Shown in pieces: positions 30,456 through 64,000 of a stretch of DNA of 64,000 nucleotides. The stretch is from Acidithiobacillus sp. HP-2 (lineage in GTDB: Bacteria; Pseudomonadota; Gammaproteobacteria; Acidithiobacillales; Acidithiobacillaceae), in the NCBI RefSeq assembly GCF_015100155.1, contig NZ_JACKZA010000013.1:1-64000 (forward strand). The letters are read 5' to 3'. Position 1 is the stretch's first letter. Every line of letters starts with the position of its first letter. A program made the position numbers and the translations under genes. The notes under the pieces were generated by a model. That model was not told the DNA's origin, made no database searches, and was given only the letters and a program-made list of their open reading frames with translations.

Positions 30456-31844
30456 TTACGGGGCCTCATCGCGATCCTCCTGGTTTTTGAATAGTTGCGG
30501 GGCCAGACCATGTTTGCGCATGAGCTTGTAAAGATCGGTGCGATGTCGGCCAGCAATACGTGCGGCCCGGGAAATATTACCATCGGTGGCACGCAGCAGA
30601 TTTTCAAGGTACACCCGTTCAAAGGCTGTTTTGGCATCCTGCAAGGGCGGGAAGGCACTGGATCCACCCTGGCGGCCGGCATCGGGAATGGCTTCTCCCG
30701 AGACCCAGCCTTTTTCGGTGACGGCGGCGGCAAAGGTAATGGCATTTTCCAGCTCTCGAACATTACCGGGCCAGGGTCGCTGCATCAGTTTGTCCATGGC
30801 TTCGGGGCTGAAACCGGGAATATTGCGTTCCAGGCGCTGGCTTTCCCGATCCAGAAAATATTGGGCAAGCAGCAGGATGTCTTCGGGACGCTCGCTGAGG
30901 CTGGGAACCCGTAGGGGAATGACGTGCAGGCGATAATATAAATCTTCCCGAAAGGCGCCGCTGGCAGTCAGCGCATGAATATCCTGATGGGTGGCACTGA
31001 TGATGCGTAAATCCACGGATATTTCCGTTTTTGCTCCGACTGGACGTAACGTCCCTTCCTGTAATACCCGCAGCAGTTTGACCTGCAAGGCCAGGGGGAG
31101 GTCGCCGATTTCGTCCAGGAACAAAGTACCCTGATCAGCGCTGCGAATGAGCCCGATATGGTCCTGAGTGGCTCCGGTAAAAGCCCCCTTGACGTGACCA
31201 AACAGTTCACTTTCGGCCAGTTCGGAGGGAATGGCGCCACAGTTGACGGCGACAAAAGGATGGTCACTACGGGCGCTGGCTTCGTGGATAGCTCTGGCGA
31301 CACGTTCCTTACCCGACCCACTGTCTCCAGAAAGAAAAACACTGGCCTGGGAAGTGGCTATGCGGGTAATTTCGTTGACCAGACTGGCCATGACCGGGCT
31401 GCGGTGGAGGATGCTTTGCCCAGCCTGAGCGCGCAGGTCAGCCCTTAACTTGCTGAGTTCACGGCCAGCGAGGCGTTGTGCCAGGGCCGCCGTGCATAAT
31501 GTTTGTAATTCGTCATTACTGAACGGCTTGCTGAGATAACCAAAAGCCTGGGCACGCATGGCTTCTACAGCGTTAGGAATGGTGCCATGGGCAGTAAGCA
31601 AAATAACCGGAAGATCGGGGTCTCGGGACTGAACGTTTTCAAGGACTGCCATTCCATCCATGATGGGCATGCGTAAATCGGTGATCAGCAAATCCACATT
31701 TTCCTGATCCAGAAGCTCCAGACCTTGCAGCGGATTGTTGCTGCTCAGTACCCGGTAATCTTCACTTTCCAGCCACAAACCCAGCAGCCTCAAGAAATCC
31801 GGATCATCATCAATAATGAGAATGGTGGGCATGGTTTTACGCAT
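30456..31844 (-). CDS. glrR: Sigma-54-dependent response regulator GlrR/QseF-like
   Basis: A 462-residue NtrC-type activator: receiver domain (about 1-120; phosphorylated Asp in LLITDLRMPIMDG), AAA+ domain (about 140-370) with Walker A GDSGSGKERVARAI and the sigma-54 contact loop GAFTGA, and a C-terminal Fis-type HTH (NISRAARIAGRHRTDLYKLM). ATG 31844 lies one base after the stop of the preceding lipoprotein gene; ATG 31832 is an alternative start. The order kinase-lipoprotein-regulator is that of glrK-qseG-glrR in enterobacteria, where the system controls the small RNA glmY and cell-envelope sugar supply. Confidence 0.88.
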   Translation of the reverse strand: MRKTMPTILIIDDDPDFLRLLGLWLESEDYRVLSSNNPLQGLELLDQENVDLLITDLRMPIMDGMAVLENVQSRDPDLPVILLTAHGTIPNAVEAMRAQAFGYLSKPFSNDELQTLCTAALAQRLAGRELSKLRADLRAQAGQSILHRSPVMASLVNEITRIATSQASVFLSGDSGSGKERVARAIHEASARSDHPFVAVNCGAIPSELAESELFGHVKGAFTGATQDHIGLIRSADQGTLFLDEIGDLPLALQVKLLRVLQEGTLRPVGAKTEISVDLRIISATHQDIHALTASGAFREDLYYRLHVIPLRVPSLSERPEDILLLAQYFLDRESQRLERNIPGFSPEAMDKLMQRPWPGNVRELENAITFAAAVTEKGWVSGEAIPDAGRQGGSSAFPPLQDAKTAFERVYLENLLRATDGNISRAARIAGRHRTDLYKLMRKHGLAPQLFKNQEDRDEAP

Positions 31845-57459: not shown

Positions 57460-58254
57460 CTAGTGTAGTGTTGCATTCTGTTTGCTGCTTAAGTGGCTGT
57501 TGGCGCGAATGACCTTTTGCAGGATGTCGCGGGCGGTTTTGGTCCAGATGAAGGGTTTGGGATGGGTGTTGTGGTGGTCGATGTACCCCTCAATGGCCTG
57601 GATGAGTTCAGGCACACTGGTGAACACCCCACGACGTAACCGCTGGGTCGTGATATCCCGAAAGAAACGCTCGACCATGTTGAGCCAGGATGCCGAAGTG
57701 GGCGTGAAGTGCATGTGAATACGCGGGTGCTTGTCGAGCCACGCCTGTACTACCGGGTGTTTATGGGTTGCATAGTTGTCGGCAATCAGATGCAGAGCCT
57801 TGTCCTTGGGCGTCTGCCGATCAATTTTCTTCAGGAACTTCAGCCATTCCACATGGGTATGGCGCTGTTGACACTGTCCGATGACCTGACCATCCAGCAC
57901 GTTGAGTGCGGCAAACAAGGTCGTGGTGCCATTACGTTTGTAGTCGTGGGTCATCGTTTCTGCGCGGCCCTTTTTGAGGGGGAGTCCCGGTTGGGTCCGG
58001 TCCAGGGCCTGTACCTGACTTTTTTCATCCACGCAGAGCACCAAAGCATGTTCCGGGGGAGACATATACAACCCCACAATATCTTCCAGCTTTTCCACTA
58101 AATGCGGATCACGTGACACTTTGAAACCACGCAGCAGATGGGGCTTGAGGCCATGCTTGCGCCAATGCCGCGACACACTGGCGGCACTGACACCCAGTTC
58201 TGCCGCCATACTGCGCGTACTCCAGGAACCCAAAGTACAGCCAACTCTAAACAT
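57460..58254 (-). pseudogene. IS630-family transposase, 5'-truncated
   Basis: A 264-codon frame containing the whole catalytic part: HTH remnant [20 protein letters not shown], first Asp in [20 protein letters not shown], second Asp in [14 protein letters not shown], and Glu in [16 protein letters not shown]. The N-terminal 70-90 residues of a full IS630 transposase are missing; homology fades near 58240, nine bases from the end of the cytochrome gene. The frame ATG at 58254 is therefore fortuitous and the element is probably dead. Confidence 0.82.
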
Positions 58255-58263
58255 AACGTCCTG

Positions 58264-58878
58264 TCATTTGTTTTTTGGGGCGCATCCTTTATGTGCTAAA
58301 CGTAGCTTAAACATATTCCAGAGTGGGTCACCTGCAAGAACATGCAGGAACACCATCCCGACGTGCCCAATCCACTGCAAAGCAATTGCAACAGCCCCCC
58401 AACGAAGGATGTCCAATAACCATCCAAATGGAATTCCGGACCACCACCCGCGAAACCCGCCTAAGAGTGTCAGACCAGCAGTGGCAACCAGAGTGACCGT
58501 GAGAAGAAATACTCCGTGCATCAATCCAGGCAGTCCTGCGCGTGGGCCGGGAGGCGCTAAAATCCCTTGAGATAGTCCCCTGATGTCTTGGACAATTACT
58601 CTTAATCCGACGGGATTCAGGGGAAACAAATAACGCAACGTAATGCGTCCACTGCGGCTCAACATCAGCCAACCCCATTGCAAAAGCAGGACCACGATCA
58701 GCACCTGACCCACGATAATGTGCCATTCAAAGGGAAACCATCCAAATAACCAGCCCATGAGCCCCGTAATCATTTGAAAGGTAACGGTAGAAAGCAGCAA
58801 GAGATGGAGCAGCTTGGCACGATTGGGCCTGCTGTCATGGACGCGGCTATATGGAGCGGTAACATGAATGATCGACAT
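58264..58878 (-). CDS. Cytochrome b561-type membrane protein
   Basis: A 204-residue integral membrane protein with four predicted helices: AKLLHLLLLSTVTFQMITGLMGWLF-like first helix, FEWHIIVGQVLIVVLLLQWGWL, LMHGVFLLTVTLVATAGLTLL, and LQWIGHVGMVFLHVLAGDPLW. Histidines in LLHLLL, EWHIIVG, LMHGVF and WIGHVGMVFLH are placed like the haem ligands of cytochrome b561 and Ni-Fe-hydrogenase-type b cytochromes. It is divergent from the HiPIP gene, with 186 bases between starts. A role in passing electrons between the quinone pool and the periplasm is plausible. Confidence 0.78.
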   Translation of the reverse strand: MSIIHVTAPYSRVHDSRPNRAKLLHLLLLSTVTFQMITGLMGWLFGWFPFEWHIIVGQVLIVVLLLQWGWLMLSRSGRITLRYLFPLNPVGLRVIVQDIRGLSQGILAPPGPRAGLPGLMHGVFLLTVTLVATAGLTLLGGFRGWWSGIPFGWLLDILRWGAVAIALQWIGHVGMVFLHVLAGDPLWNMFKLRLAHKGCAPKNK

Positions 58879-59064
58879 ACACAGCGTACCTCATCAAAGT
58901 TAATCCCTGTATAAAAAACCTGTTTGGTGGATATACGAATAACCTCCTGATGTAGATGCAAAAAAAATCTGTTAGGCGGGTGCATCCAGATTGTAAAAGC
59001 TGTCGTATACATATATGCGTGAAGTTCTATTTCCTTATCACCGCCAGCTTTGAGGACAATCTCT

Positions 59065-59346
59065 ATGAAAAAATCGATGAATCGTCGTGAATGGTTAAAA
59101 ACGAGCACTCAAATTGCGGCAGTTGCGGCTGTAGCTCCCCTAGTTTTTTCGCCTCTGGCGGAAGCCGGCACGCTTTCGAGCAAGGCTTCCGTCAGCTATC
59201 AGGATCATCCTTCGGGCAAGGATATGTGTAGCAACTGTATGCACTTCATTCCAGGCTCAAGCCCTACCGCAGACGGGACTTGCAAAGTGGTGGCGGGAAA
59301 AATCAGCCCTCACGGTTACTGCTACGCCTATACACCCAAATCGTAA
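59065..59346 (+). CDS. High-potential iron-sulfur protein (HiPIP)
   Basis: A 93-residue periplasmic electron carrier. The twin-arginine signal MNRREWLKTSTQIAAVAAVA ends near AEAG, so the cluster is inserted before Tat export. The four [4Fe-4S] cysteines fit CSNCMHF, GTCKVV and HGYCYAY (C-x2-C-x15-C-x12/13-C). ATG 59065 is preferred over 59050, because it leaves a normal Tat n-region. HiPIPs of this size include the Iro protein of Acidithiobacillus. The gene is followed 20 bases on by an exported globin. Confidence 0.92.
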   Translation: MKKSMNRREWLKTSTQIAAVAAVAPLVFSPLAEAGTLSSKASVSYQDHPSGKDMCSNCMHFIPGSSPTADGTCKVVAGKISPHGYCYAYTPKS

Positions 59347-59366
59347 CCATCAGTCAGGAGGTTTAA

Positions 59367-59867
59367 ATGAAAAGGTTCAAACTGAAAAACGCTGCTATAT
59401 TGGCTGGTCTCGCCCTCACCATGGGCTTGGCAGCACCTTTGGCAATCGCCTCACCAAATGCGGCATCCATTCAGCGTGCTGACATCAAGCTGCCTATACA
59501 GAATTACATTGGTGACTTTGGTGGCCCATCGGGCGTAAAAGCACTGATTAGTACTTTTGTGGGTTATGTCGCTGCAGATCCCCACATCAATTATTACTTT
59601 GCGCACACCAACATCAAGGCCCTCAAATATAATCTGACCCAACAGGTTTGTGAGGTAGTGGGTGGGCCCTGCAAATACACAGGCCCTACCATGACCGCCA
59701 CGCACAAAGGATTGCATGTCACCACTGCCGCTTTCAATTATCTGGCACAAGACATGATTAAGGCCATGGACAAGCGGGGAATCGCCAAGCCTGCGCAGAA
59801 TTACCTGTTAGCACAACTGGCCGCTATGGAACCACAGGTAGTCACGGCCAGTGGCCCTTTGGGCTGA
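59367..59867 (+). CDS. Exported group I truncated haemoglobin
   Basis: A 166-residue protein with an N-terminal signal peptide (LKNAAILAGLALTMGLAAPLAIAS) and a globin domain of about 125 residues: VKALISTFVGYVAADPHINYYF (helix B/C), LTQQVCEVVGGPCKYTGPTM (E-F region with the proximal patterns of group I) and THKGLHVTTAAFNYLAQDMIKAMD. The His of the THKGLHV segment is the probable proximal ligand. A strong aggaggttt Shine-Dalgarno precedes the ATG. Periplasmic trHbs could bind O2 or NO near the HiPIP/b561 electron carriers. Confidence 0.85.
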   Translation: MKRFKLKNAAILAGLALTMGLAAPLAIASPNAASIQRADIKLPIQNYIGDFGGPSGVKALISTFVGYVAADPHINYYFAHTNIKALKYNLTQQVCEVVGGPCKYTGPTMTATHKGLHVTTAAFNYLAQDMIKAMDKRGIAKPAQNYLLAQLAAMEPQVVTASGPLG

Positions 59868-59966
59868 GTTTAATGGCCCGCAAGTATGTCCACCACGCCA
59901 TTAAGCATGTCTTTTTTGGTAGATACGCTTAATGGGAACCAAAAATCCTAAGTTTAGGAAGAGATT

Positions 59967-61043
59967 ATGAATACACTGAAGAGTAAAGGATTAGCCGTTG
60001 CAATTGCTTGTGCATTCGCTGCATTGCCGCTAACCGCCAATGCAGCGATCGGGGCTGCCAGTCTATTTGGCCAGGGCCGTATTTTGGGCACCGGAGCAGT
60101 AACAGCGATAGACGGTGCTGCCGGTGGTGGTATCAACCCCTGGGCAGTAATTTCGGGTTACGGCACCAACCAGCAAATTGGCGCGACCGCTTTTTATTCA
60201 CATGTATTGCTGAACAACTATAATATGGACGCCTATGGCGCATCGGTCGGACTATTCAATCGTATTGAGCTTTCTTTTGCCCGCCAGAGTTTTGGGTTAG
60301 GAAATACCGGAGCGGCTTTGGATCAGGCCATTAACGGGTACGCCTATGGTAAGCTTGGGGTAACGCCTAATGCTGAAGAACTCAACGCCCCGGCTTACAC
60401 GGCTCTTGTTGCTCATGGTCTTACAACCCCTGGCCCGGCTTTTTTTGGCAACAGCTATGAATTGAACCAGGACATTGTTGGGATCAAGGCCAGACTGTTT
60501 GGTAATGTGGTGTATGACCAGAACTGGTGGGAGCCGGAAGTATCTGTTGGTGTGGATTTTCATCACAACGAAATGCCGAAAAACCTGGCTACCACGCTGC
60601 ATGTGGCGCGGAACGGTGTCAGTTATTATCTTTCTGCCACAAAGGTATGGCTCAACGGAATATTCGGTCTGACCACCCTGGCGGATGTGAACATTGATGT
60701 GACTAATGCCAATCAGCAAGGTTTGTTGGGCTTTGGTGGTGCAGATGGCATGGGCTATAAAGTGTTGCCAGCGGCCTCGGTGGGGGTTTTCCTGAACCGG
60801 CATGTCGTATTGGGTGCTGAATATCGGGATATGCCCCAGAATCAGTTGATAGCACCGTCTAGTAATAAATTATTGGGTGCACTGGGTGATCAGGTGTCCA
60901 AAACCAGTGCCTGGAAAGACGTTTATGTCGCCTGGTTCCCCTACAAGCAGCTATCTGTGACGGCGGCCTATGTGGATCTCGGTACCATCGCTACCATGAA
61001 AAGCCAGAACGGTCTTTATCTGTCTCTGACCAGCAGCTTCTAA
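59967..61043 (+). CDS. DUF3034-type outer-membrane protein
   Basis: A 358-residue protein with a cleavable signal peptide (AVAIACAFAALPLTANA) and alternating beta-strand pattern ending in the terminal Phe (LYLSLTSSF), as in outer-membrane barrels. GGGINPWAVISGYGTN and FNRIELSFARQSF are typical of DUF3034 proteins found near respiratory or metal-oxidation genes. It follows the globin gene at 99 bases, and an A/G-rich aggaagag Shine-Dalgarno precedes ATG 59967. Confidence 0.8.
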   Translation: MNTLKSKGLAVAIACAFAALPLTANAAIGAASLFGQGRILGTGAVTAIDGAAGGGINPWAVISGYGTNQQIGATAFYSHVLLNNYNMDAYGASVGLFNRIELSFARQSFGLGNTGAALDQAINGYAYGKLGVTPNAEELNAPAYTALVAHGLTTPGPAFFGNSYELNQDIVGIKARLFGNVVYDQNWWEPEVSVGVDFHHNEMPKNLATTLHVARNGVSYYLSATKVWLNGIFGLTTLADVNIDVTNANQQGLLGFGGADGMGYKVLPAASVGVFLNRHVVLGAEYRDMPQNQLIAPSSNKLLGALGDQVSKTSAWKDVYVAWFPYKQLSVTAAYVDLGTIATMKSQNGLYLSLTSSF

Positions 61044-61097: not shown

Positions 61098-61680
61098 ACT
61101 CCACCGGCTAAAAGCCGGTGGCTTCAGGTTACGGCTGGAAGCCGGATCGGTCGGCACTGAGGCCGACGGCTGTCGCTACACGACATGAAAGTCATCGTCT
61201 GGATCTGGTGGGGTTTGATTCTTGATGTACTCCTGCTAAACCTCATCTGTTACATTCCCACTACTCGCGACCCAATAGCCCCGCCCCCACAAATGTTGGC
61301 ACCAGTATCTCTTGAGTAACTTCGCATACTCCGTCAGCAACCGATGCGAGCTCTTCCCTTTCAAATACTGTACCGCCTTGGATACCGATAGATTCGGCGG
61401 TATCCCTATCAATAGATGTACATGATCCCTATTAATCGACCCCGCATAGATCACCATTTCCTTACTACGCGCTATCTCTCGCAGCAATTCCCGACATCGT
61501 AGCCCTACATCCCAGGCCAATACCTGATATTGGTACTTCGTCGTCCAGACTAGGTGATACTTACAATCCCAAACCGGGTGACTACCACTTTTATAAGATT
61601 CCATAGCTGTGGTTATACCACCGGACTTATCCGCCGCCTAAAGGCGGGGGATTTACGGATCCCCTATCGGGGACTCTAAA
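61098..61680 (-). mobile_element. IS200/IS605-type element (tnpA only), approximate ends
   Basis: The tnpA gene is flanked by the hairpins expected at IS200/IS605 ends: a perfect 9-bp stem ccaccggct-aaa-agccggtgg at 61101-61121 on the left and cgcct-aa-aggcg near 61635 on the right, with tcccc-tat-cggggA at about 61658. No inverted terminal repeats are expected. The TnpA frame is broken by an amber codon, so the element is probably inactive. Confidence 0.7.
61173..61604 (-). pseudogene. IS200-type TnpA with TAG before the catalytic tyrosine
   Basis: A Y1-HUH transposase. From ATG 61604 the frame reads SHPVWDCKYHLVWTTKYQYQ, the HUH motif is RDHVHLLIGIPP and SVSKAVQYLKGKSSHRLL follows. After NVTDEV at 61239 there is TAG (61236-61238), then in the same frame QEYIKNQTPPDPDDDFHVV to a natural stop near 61175. 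In IS200 TnpA the nucleophile Tyr is in the equivalent IQDYIKHQ segment, so the stop removes it. The untruncated protein would be about 142 residues. Confidence 0.72.
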
Positions 61681-61718: not shown

Positions 61719-62564
61719 CTATTCAATGGGTAAAAGAGGATCTCTAGACCATTCATTCCAAGAACCAAAATACATCCGAACATTGTCAATACCTGCACTT
61801 TTCATCGCGAGAAGTGCATTGGCTGCCCTAGCACCTTTAAAGCAATATATAATGATGTTACTATTTGAATAAATGCCCGCAGTTTGTAGTTCTGCCAAGA
61901 GTTCATTTTTATTTTTAAATATAGATCCGTATTCTCCTGGTTTCATAAATCTATACCACTCAATCCACCTTGCTCCGGGAATCCGACCTTTACGCGGACA
62001 ATAATCAATGCCATAAGGAGAAGAACTCTCCCCAATCCATTCACTCACATCTCGAACATCGAGTATTATTGTTTCCTTATCATTCAAAGCTTCGAGCATT
62101 TGGTCTTTCGTGACCATGACGTTCTCATTTTTAAGTACTTTAAAATTTTGCACAGGAATAAGATTTGGGACATCTAAAGTGGTTGGCAACCCCTCGTGCA
62201 ACCATCTTTGATATCCACCGTGGAGCACGGCAGCATTAGAATGACCTAAATACTGCATCAAATACCAGCCCCGGCACGACTGACCGAATCCGTCATTCAT
62301 CTGCTGTTCGTAGAATACGATTTTTTGATTTGCATGTACGCCGAGCTTTCCTAATAGATCAGAAAATTTAGATGTAAGGCTTTCCAACCCATCATAGTCT
62401 GTCATAGCGAGATAGGTAAAAATTTCACGAAGATTGCGAGCGCCAGGAAGGTGCCCTGCTAAATAGGCTTCAGGTGACCGGGTATCAATAAGTACGATAT
62501 CCTCAGGGTAGGAATTCAATAATGCTTGCACATCAGCACATTCCAGGATGCTTTCAGTTTTCAT
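61719..62564 (-). CDS. Tandem-rhodanese sulfurtransferase (thiosulfate/3-mercaptopyruvate type)
   Basis: A 281-residue two-domain rhodanese. N-terminal domain: VQALLNSYPEDIVLIDTRSPEAYLAGHLPGA; C-terminal catalytic domain: IILDVRDVSEWIGESS, GRIPGARWIEW and the active loop NIIIYCFKGARAANALLAMK, with Cys as persulfide carrier. Loop CFKGAR is close to the CRKGVT of thiosulfate sulfurtransferase but not identical, so substrate is uncertain. No signal peptide. It lies 23 bases after cynS on the same strand, which suggests a joint role in cyanide, thiocyanate or cyanate metabolism. Confidence 0.85.
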   Translation of the reverse strand: MKTESILECADVQALLNSYPEDIVLIDTRSPEAYLAGHLPGARNLREIFTYLAMTDYDGLESLTSKFSDLLGKLGVHANQKIVFYEQQMNDGFGQSCRGWYLMQYLGHSNAAVLHGGYQRWLHEGLPTTLDVPNLIPVQNFKVLKNENVMVTKDQMLEALNDKETIILDVRDVSEWIGESSSPYGIDYCPRKGRIPGARWIEWYRFMKPGEYGSIFKNKNELLAELQTAGIYSNSNIIIYCFKGARAANALLAMKSAGIDNVRMYFGSWNEWSRDPLLPIE

Positions 62565-62587
62565 AACACACCTCATTAAAAAAGTTT

Positions 62588-63031
62588 TCAGTAAGTTTTA
62601 TATTTCAGGTATTTACCGTTCATGGTGACTTTTATGCGATCTCCGTGTTCATCCGTTACTCTGGAAATATCTATAGAAAAATCAATGGCACTCATGATTC
62701 CATCTCCGAACTCCTCATGAATCAGCTCTTTGATAGTGGTTCCATATACCTGTAGTATTTCATAAAACCTGTATATGGTTGGGTCTGTAGGAATGGCGGT
62801 TGGCAGACATCCACGCGAAGGAACTTCCTGCAGTATGCGTTCAACTTCCTCAGGAAGTTCCAATAAGTGAGTAACCACACGTGCCTGCTCAGCTGATAGC
62901 GGCATTTGTCCCAAGAGCGCAGCAGTGCTCCATTCCTTGCTGACTCCAAGCCGAGCGCTCAAATCCTTCCAGCTGAGGCCATGAAGAAGTTTTTTTTCTA
63001 ATATCAATGCAGTGACATCTGATCTGTTCAT
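62588..63031 (-). CDS. cynS: Cyanate hydratase (cyanase)
   Basis: Converts cyanate and bicarbonate to ammonia and CO2. The 147-residue decameric enzyme is clear from LSWKDLSARLGVSKEWSTAALLGQ (N-terminal HTH-like domain) and the catalytic block TDPTIYRFYEILQVYGTTIK with Arg and Glu, followed by HEEFGDGIMSAIDFSIDI with the catalytic Ser. C-terminal VTMNGKYLKYK is conserved. In an autotroph it supplies both nitrogen and CO2. It is upstream of the sulfurtransferase gene. Confidence 0.95.
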   Translation of the reverse strand: MNRSDVTALILEKKLLHGLSWKDLSARLGVSKEWSTAALLGQMPLSAEQARVVTHLLELPEEVERILQEVPSRGCLPTAIPTDPTIYRFYEILQVYGTTIKELIHEEFGDGIMSAIDFSIDISRVTDEHGDRIKVTMNGKYLKYKTY

Positions 63032-63091
63032 TCGTTGGCTCCTTATAAGTTGCTAAGTTTTGCTGATTACAACCAAAAAAATTGGATGCAT

Positions 63092-64000
63092 CTATGTAAA
63101 TTTTGTGTTGACAAAAATCCAACCAGCCTGAGTATTCTTGAATAAGTTATCCGCTGAAATATAGTCTGCATATTGCGCTCCTAAAAGCCAAGATGAGTTA
63201 AAACGATGAATAACGGAAAGATCGACTTCATGCCCATAGTGTACTGAGTGATAGCTAGAATCAAAAGAATAATATCTCGCCATAAATTTGGTATTCATCC
63301 AAAGTGCTTTCGCAGTAATGTAAACACTTTTTAACCCTTCTTTTGGAGTGGTTAGAAAAACATCTGCCCAACCGTTAAACAAATGCTTAGTAGCCAGAGG
63401 CGTCTGAAAGCCATATGTACCATTCTTGTTAGCGCCCATCACCATGTAATCGGCATGGATACCAAGATTTCTCCAGGTGAGGCCCGCTCCACCATGCGCG
63501 TAAGAGGCGTTAACCAAGGGGCTGCCACCGTCATACGGTGTTTGTTTCGCATAGCTACCGTCGTACTGTATATGGTATGAACGGGTTATGGGTATCACAC
63601 CTGCAACGCTGATACCAATGCTTTGGCTGTTACAGGCTTGTACGCCAGACAATAAACAAGCTGCAGCACCAGGTATTAGTGTTTTAGACTGATTTCCGTA
63701 CCAATAACCAAAAAGATCGGCGTGAAGAAGTTGGCTTTGAGTAAATGATGCTTGAGCTAGAAAAGTCTTAGATGCTACTAATTGGTTTAGAATATTCTTG
63801 ATCCGCCAAATATACGCGCCAAAAAGATGAACATGCCTATCAACGTTATCATGAAGAGAAACGGCATCAAAACTCTGAGGGGTTTGAAAAAAATCAACAT
63901 TACCTACGAATCGGCTATCATTTAAAATGATTTCTTGGCGACCCACGCGAGCTCTTATGCCTTTCAAACCCGTGTACTGTATATAGAACTGATTGACACC
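63092..64000 (-). CDS. Outer-membrane porin-like protein, 5' end beyond window
   Basis: The 3' 302 codons of a beta-barrel protein; the frame is open to the right edge and the start lies outside the window. Alternating strands (ARVGRQEIILNDSRFVG, AGLTWRNLGIHADYMVMG, KFMARYYSFDSSYHS, VDLSVIHRFNSSWLLGAQYADY) ending in VNTKFT resemble alginate-export/OprD-like porins: GRQEI and DSRFVG are typical of the alginate_exp group. It probably lets small anions or organics through the outer membrane, and is on the same strand as cynS (60 bases downstream), perhaps serving cyanate uptake. Confidence 0.7.
   Translation of the reverse strand, partial: GVNQFYIQYTGLKGIRARVGRQEIILNDSRFVGNVDFFQTPQSFDAVSLHDNVDRHVHLFGAYIWRIKNILNQLVASKTFLAQASFTQSQLLHADLFGYWYGNQSKTLIPGAAACLLSGVQACNSQSIGISVAGVIPITRSYHIQYDGSYAKQTPYDGGSPLVNASYAHGGAGLTWRNLGIHADYMVMGANKNGTYGFQTPLATKHLFNGWADVFLTTPKEGLKSVYITAKALWMNTKFMARYYSFDSSYHSVHYGHEVDLSVIHRFNSSWLLGAQYADYISADNLFKNTQAGWIFVNTKFT

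Follow-up and report, generated by a model that had tools for sequence, protein, structure and literature searches.

The locus described here occupies positions 58264-61043 of a 64,000-nucleotide stretch of DNA from Acidithiobacillus sp. HP-2 (below, at its full length, the window). Two of its genes, which encode an exported group 1 truncated haemoglobin (trHb) and a DUF3034 protein, are the core of a module that recurs far beyond the family Acidithiobacillaceae, and the group in the window is one rearranged copy of this wider module, flanked by insertion sequences (IS). The altered haem pocket of the globin suggests gas or redox sensing in the cell envelope rather than oxygen storage. An earlier note, made from the letters of the stretch, had described four genes here, for a high-potential iron-sulfur protein (HiPIP), the globin, a cytochrome b561-type membrane protein and the DUF3034 protein, and had taken them as one unit handling O2 or nitric oxide (NO). 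Open reading frame coordinates and Pfam matches confirmed the four genes at their positions. The combination of exported globin, electron carrier and outer-membrane protein proved to be conserved, but the core is the DUF3034-globin pair, and the carrier is mostly a cupredoxin outside Acidithiobacillaceae. In many relatives the cluster also contains a protein of cyclic di-GMP (c-di-GMP) metabolism with GGDEF and EAL domains, which is an addition to the earlier picture.

Linkage of DUF3034 and the exported globin

The distribution of the pair was followed in a class sample of 276 genomes and a phylum sample of 397 genomes, where DUF3034 occurred in 16 and 46 genomes, respectively. In addition, 55 DUF3034 stretches were searched in six frames with profiles built in this analysis. 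The globin adjoins DUF3034 in 48 of these stretches; among the remaining seven, two (L105, L106) run into the end of a contig, in one (L096 and L172) the globin is about 10 kb off, and four are without globin. In the phylum sample the two genes are neighbours in 45 of the 46 DUF3034 genomes (40 fetched stretches together with G000, G119, G269, G106 and G502), the exception being G130. The globin profile, with at most nine candidates scored per genome, gave matches of at least 140 bits in 48 of the 397 genomes, the next match being at 110 bits, and all 46 DUF3034 genomes fall within these 48. Of the 16 DUF3034 genomes in the class sample, 10 have the two genes side by side and five do not, with one undetermined. 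Taken together, the genomes with the pair carry 19 family labels and belong to two classes or more. The pair is also carried on plasmids, where the globin stands next to DUF3034 in 13/13 DUF3034 records (9 Caballeronia, 3 Novosphingobium, 1 Paraburkholderia). Two Caballeronia plasmid records have the annotated order DUF3034, group 1 truncated hemoglobin, 'methylamine utilization protein' and EAL protein, and in a Novosphingobium record the genes of the last two are divergent. That the globin and DUF3034 form a functional unit is probable, and much more so than the sensing role discussed below.

DUF3034 is, by prediction, an outer-membrane beta-barrel. The protein of the window (59967-61043, plus strand; PF11231 315.7 bits, cut-off 25) has a leader and a C-terminal Phe, and its model contains 12 strands (predicted local distance difference test, pLDDT, 77.8). 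Among the best 50 Foldseek rows, the top ones were outer-membrane barrels (FapF, Omp33, OmpG, OmpF) with probability 1.00 and TM-scores of 0.27-0.43 by query length. A close relationship to one solved porin was considered and found unsupported, as the best rows represent several kinds of barrel with low TM-scores by query length.

Two further loci were noted. G371 contains a decayed second DUF3034-globin pair (L173:6183-7422), in pieces with stops or frame changes, and an intact pair elsewhere in the genome. On a plasmid of Azoarcus sp. KH32C (L179), an annotated group 1 truncated hemoglobin occurs without DUF3034 in the stretch, with an EAL-domain gene about 1.4 kb away.

Haem pocket of the globin

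The globin of the window (59367-59867, plus strand) has PF01152 as its sole Pfam match (44.6 bits, cut-off 21), with no HNOB (H-NOX) or FIST (NosP) match, and its leader, as read from the sequence, is of the Sec type and ends in AIA. Its model (pLDDT 89.1) shows the 2-on-2 fold and aligns with a trHbN chain at Z 20.6 and 1.2 A over 117 residues; the residue register is supported because this alignment has equal-length ranges on both sides. The positions that matter for ligand binding are B10 Val65, E7 Leu86, E11 Leu90 and F8 His113, and a Cys pair is formed by Cys95 and Cys102. The Tyr B10 with Gln at E7 or E11 that is typical of trHbN is thus replaced in the window globin by Val/Leu/Leu.

The same pocket characterizes the whole set of 59 aligned globins, which comprises 48 from the 55 DUF3034 stretches and 11 chosen from Acidithiobacillaceae, two of the latter (L062, L081) from loci without DUF3034. 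The proximal His and the Cys pair (E16 and EF region) are kept in all 59, and CD1 is Phe in 58. At B10, 58 sequences have Leu, Val, Ile or Met and one has Asn, Tyr being absent, while both E7 and E11 are occupied by an apolar residue (Leu, Phe, Ile or Val) in 59/59; Phe accounts for 19 of the residues at E7 and for 9 of those at E11. The control set of trHb1s without DUF3034 link, hand-picked rather than drawn at random from a middle portion of those class-sample matches that were listed, had Tyr B10, Gln E7 and Gln E11 and no Cys pair in 20/20 cases. Judged by these residues, the globin is a distinct trHb1 subfamily. It resembles trHbN-type group 1 trHbs in fold, CD1 Phe and proximal His, and differs from them in being exported, in its apolar B10, E7 and E11, in the conserved Cys pair and in the link to DUF3034. 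A lipobox pattern was found in 31/48 globins, some probably falsely; this count, like the motif counts below, comes from simple patterns on stop-to-stop frames.

In trHbs that have lost the distal hydrogen-bond donors, O2 is bound more weakly and NO dioxygenation is reduced, and in other haem sensors such a loss goes with NO selectivity. Because B10, E7 and E11 are apolar throughout the subfamily, the usual trHb O2 or NO-dioxygenase chemistry appears unlikely. The O2 part of the role suggested in the earlier note is therefore improbable, at least by the usual trHb mechanism, and NO or another ligand is possible. A loss of haem binding, the doubt raised in the same note, was not borne out at the level of sequence, given the invariant proximal His.

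Cupredoxin, GGDEF-EAL protein and HiPIP

Outside Acidithiobacillaceae, two further genes usually accompany the pair. An exported protein of about 220 amino acids, a cupredoxin, is found in 43/55 stretches and a GGDEF-EAL protein in 42/55, both at E < 1e-30; these counts cover the whole fetched stretch, and looser 6 kb tallies (44 and 44) include weak matches, e.g. a kinase in L096. In many stretches both genes touch the DUF3034-globin cluster in fixed order. The cupredoxin gives weak matches to blue-copper families and structures and keeps the ligands His, Cys, His and Met (H...C-x2-H-x2-M, the spacing of amicyanin) in 44 of 45 sequences. In the examples scanned, the GGDEF-EAL protein consists of dCache, HAMP, GGDEF and EAL domains, and an EAL or EVL motif is kept in 43/44. 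The identification of these 220 and 790 amino acid neighbours as an ABC transporter was wrong, as domain scans point to a cupredoxin and a Cache-GGDEF-EAL protein. As a separate observation, at L096:9814-12417 a dCache-HAMP protein with a C-terminal Ser/Thr-type kinase domain instead of GGDEF-EAL comes after the cupredoxin; the DUF3034 of this locus has no globin next to it.

The cupredoxin profile matched none of the 29 Acidithiobacillaceae genomes sampled (positive controls were detected in 4/4), and the six-frame profile search found no HiPIP in the 55 DUF3034 stretches. Because of this reciprocal pattern, HiPIP would seem to take the place of the cupredoxin in Acidithiobacillaceae. The HiPIP gene of the window (59065-59346, plus strand) ends 20 bases before the ATG of the globin gene. 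Its product carries the four cluster ligands (Cys 55, 58, 73 and 86) and a Tat-type leader, read from the sequence, with the RR motif NRREWLK. It stays below the curated cut-offs of both PF01355 (20.9 bits, cut-off 22) and the Iro equivalog NF041615 (80.8 bits, cut-off 100), and because of the former it is labelled here as a HiPIP-like, Iro-like protein that has diverged. With the Iro HiPIP of Acidithiobacillus it shares the Iro match, the Tat-type leader and the four Cys, and it differs in its score under the cut-off and its position beside a globin. A second Iro-like gene of the same genome (contig C44), 59% identical, passes PF01355 at 26.4 bits.

Copies within Acidithiobacillaceae

Among the 29 Acidithiobacillaceae genomes, 12 contain the exported globin. 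A HiPIP gene lies no more than about 2 kb from a globin copy in 12/12 of them, the nearby globin being a fragment in G018 and G027. DUF3034 is also present in 12/12, as fragments only in G001 and G010, and is cut by a contig end in G027. Genomes rather than loci were counted where relevant, since L066 and L086, like L060 and L091, are the same loci taken from two collections. Two genomes (G005, G014) have a more distant DUF3034, at about 195 bits, without this globin. L070, L073, L079 and L086 share the order DUF3034, globin, OmpA-type lipoprotein, DUF4878-like protein (below the Pfam cut-off), C92 amidase-like protein and HiPIP, and phosphoribulokinase lies upstream in three of these four clusters. 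Four Acidithiobacillaceae stretches (L077, L082, L085, L088) have a GGDEF-EAL-type gene close to the cluster.

The arrangement of the window, with b561 divergent from HiPIP-globin-DUF3034, was seen in three genomes: the window genome (G000), G016, where an ISL3 transposase separates b561 from HiPIP, and G001 (A. concretivorus), where the DUF3034 match ends after about 49 residues, near a contig end. The b561-type protein (204 amino acids; 58264-58878, minus strand; PF01292 33.1 bits, cut-off 30.1; 8 His) was rejected as a core member, as it was seen beside HiPIP in these three genomes only; it is a neighbour specific to the window subtype. The earlier note had named a lack of joint occurrence of the four genes in relatives as a refutation; globin, carrier and DUF3034 do occur together in relatives, and b561 joins them in the three genomes only. 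On the left the group is flanked by an IS630 transposase lacking about 70 N-terminal positions (57460-58254, minus strand; NF033545 positions 77-299 of 299) and on the right by an IS200/IS605-type transposase (61236-61604, minus strand; NF033573 126.7 bits).

The closest named match of the window globin is that of A. concretivorus (96% identical). The window globin clusters with other window-type globins and next with a paralogue from the glgA locus (84% identical), and outside the window type the window HiPIP and DUF3034 are most like those of the DUF3034-globin-OmpA-HiPIP copies. Because the globin and the HiPIP and DUF3034 have different closest relatives, the window copy looks composite. 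Globins of this kind are matched four times in G000, whose true gene number is uncertain because two of the matches are identical where they overlap and one is at a contig end. The glgA locus itself encodes a paralogous exported globin (L062:6001-6492; L072:7057-7677; homologues in L061, L063, L064 and L078); the gene after it codes for an alpha/beta hydrolase of the lipoprotein type.

Elsewhere in the window, genes for a rhodanese (3-mercaptopyruvate sulfurtransferase-like), a cyanase and an Alginate_exp-like membrane protein (below cut-off) are grouped at 61719-63967 on the minus strand, a possible cyanate/sulfur operon. An anti-phage role of the four-gene group was rejected, as PADLOC gave no match for any of its four proteins.

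Regulation

A sigma54-type -24/-12 element precedes 13 of the 14 DUF3034 genes tested outside the window locus and 28 of 238 control genes in the same kind of stretches, the controls including some DUF3034 genes (Fisher p 1e-10, uncorrected for relatedness; the genomes are related, so that Fisher values are not independent tests). A sigma54 activator gene is often found near DUF3034 clusters. The element was not convincing before two cupredoxin genes, and a scan of upstream regions did not find it before the HiPIP, b561 or DUF3034 genes of the window. Because it is missing there, the window copy is probably under other control. The divergent intergenic region between b561 and HiPIP (58879-59064), which lacks the element of the parent clusters, showed no sigma70 or terminator-like site in the corresponding scans. 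Elsewhere these scans gave 6 promoter-like sites, against 3.3 (sd 1.8) in shuffles, and 2 terminator-like sites, against 2.7 (sd 1.7). A sigma54-activator-like gene lies at 30501-31505 of the window (E 7e-84 to the activator profile built in this analysis). L101-L104 represent a second kind of DUF3034 locus, with a good sigma54-type element before DUF3034 and an activator gene in the stretch.

Discussion

Gene linkage, the leaders, the kept haem ligand, the changed pocket, the two kinds of carrier and the frequent c-di-GMP enzyme are the features which lead us tentatively to favour sensing of gas or redox state in the envelope, read out as c-di-GMP in many relatives. The exported globin would sense a small haem ligand, with NO more likely than O2, or the redox state of the periplasm, and the electron carrier, whether cupredoxin or HiPIP, would set or reset the haem iron. 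The DUF3034 barrel may act as an outer-membrane partner or as an entry route. Where a Cache-HAMP-GGDEF-EAL protein is present in the inner membrane, the state of the haem would be converted into a change in c-di-GMP, as is done by YfiBNR with other proteins. In the window, where no GGDEF-EAL gene was found, the genes stand in inverted order and lack the sigma54-type element, so that the globin may work mainly with the HiPIP and possibly with b561. More doubtful is the broader claim of a widespread class of envelope haem sensors, in which an O2-excluding exported trHb with DUF3034, reset by a high-potential carrier, would report NO or redox state to a Cache-GGDEF-EAL enzyme. It is likewise only possible that, within such a class, the window lineage swapped the carrier, rearranged the genes and has no such output gene next to this copy.

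Several observations weigh against envelope sensing as the shared function. The GGDEF-EAL gene is absent at E < 1e-30 from 13/55 stretches and was not found in the window, L100 and L135 have the cupredoxin without it, and the exact GGDEF motif occurs in only 15/44 of these proteins. With the profiles built for the search, nothing but DUF3034 and the globin was detected in L111, L140, L142 and L145. The pair itself can be separated: L101-L104 are DUF3034 loci with a sigma54 activator and without globin, G561 and G434 carry the subfamily globin without DUF3034, and the glgA-locus paralogues have neither DUF3034 nor HiPIP in the stretch. In the pocket, E14 is unusually polar (Gln in 41/59) and could supply another hydrogen-bond donor, and the way in which the 20 control trHb1s were chosen calls for caution as well.

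Handling of NO or O2 in the periplasm is the alternative that survives best, and it is unlikely. In this case the globin would oxidise NO to nitrate or carry O2, its iron would be re-reduced by the HiPIP or cupredoxin (joined by b561 in the window copy), and DUF3034 would serve as a porin. The invariant haem ligand, the trHbN-like fold and an electron carrier adjoining in the window and in 43/55 other loci are consistent with such a role. However, the Tyr/Gln network of trHbN, present in all the unlinked trHb1s, is missing from all 59 globins, and a GGDEF-EAL partner would be unexpected for an enzyme. Moreover, HiPIPs and cupredoxins have high potentials, which makes them poor donors to a haem b globin.

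Distinctly less probable is the binding of sulfide, or of another ligand of ferric haem, in which the apolar pocket would hold H2S in a sulfur oxidiser and the carrier would keep the iron oxidised. The apolar pocket, with Phe frequent at E7 and found at E11, would suit this role, high-potential carriers would favour ferric haem, and the genus of the window oxidises sulfur. However, the same subfamily occurs in Caballeronia, Paraburkholderia and Novosphingobium, in which a role for sulfide is not evident.

It is very unlikely that the module is a haem b electron conduit, in which barrel, globin and high-potential carrier would move electrons between the cell surface and the periplasm as a globin analogue of porin-cytochrome or Cyc2-type systems. 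The parts are of the same kinds as in Cyc2-rusticyanin, and the DUF3034-globin pair is inseparable in most genomes. However, the CxxCH haem c site of porin-cytochrome conduits is lacking in both the globin and the DUF3034 of the window, a 12-stranded barrel is small, and the hosts include Caballeronia and Novosphingobium, which are not known as iron oxidisers. Just as improbable is a neighbourhood without joint function, i.e. an old co-transfer of unrelated envelope genes that stayed together by chance and, in the window, were relocated by IS elements. Although IS elements flank the window copy, gene order varies between lineages and some members occur alone, the genes stay adjacent in 45/46 genomes over about 19 family labels despite reordering and co-occur in 46/46.

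H-NOX, NosP and globin-coupled sensors are cytosolic haem gas sensors coupled to c-di-GMP. The proposed envelope sensor shares with them a haem protein gene beside a GGDEF-EAL gene and the loss of distal hydrogen-bond donors seen in NO-selective sensors; it differs in being exported, in belonging to another fold family (PF01152) and in having an outer-membrane partner. The module may work like YfiBNR, whose components likewise lie in the outer membrane, in the periplasm and, as a c-di-GMP enzyme, in the inner membrane, and it would not be a member of that system. The parts are unrelated (barrel, haem globin, cupredoxin or HiPIP, and a dCache-GGDEF-EAL protein, the last not near the window copy), and profile scans against Pfam and NCBIfam, which covered the window and representative partners, named other families and no YfiB, YfiR or YfiN homologues.

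Other truncated globins have been placed in different contexts. Two reports describe, in cable bacteria, periplasmic fusions of truncated haemoglobin with pentahaem cytochromes, for which O2 reduction was proposed (PMC11976967, PMC13047784). The periplasmic location is common to both cases, but those globins are fused to a multihaem cytochrome, whereas the present one is a protein of its own, accompanied by a barrel and by either a HiPIP or a cupredoxin, with no CxxCH in the window proteins. Further sources deal with trHbN genes of Sideroxydans ES-1, suggested as part of a terminal oxidase, and with group II/III trHbs in methanotrophs; for A. ferrooxidans they mention a group 2 trHb and a truncated globin encoded in a cluster for Fe-Mo transport. 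The earlier note had regarded the system as not described, and the literature searched, from which subscription journals were largely outside the scope so that absence is not proven, agrees in containing no description of an exported globin-DUF3034 module. The sources of the same search, in the parts available, contained no relevant literature on DUF3034 itself.

Summarizing, if envelope sensing is correct, haem sensing tied to c-di-GMP, which is known in the cytosol, would be placed outside the inner membrane. DUF3034, a domain of unknown function, would gain a testable role, and roles would also follow for a trHb subfamily now labelled plain group 1 truncated haemoglobin and for the 'methylamine utilization protein' genes that bear a blue-copper site. 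The apparent natural swap from cupredoxin to HiPIP in Acidithiobacillaceae would then offer a built-in test of the function of the carrier.

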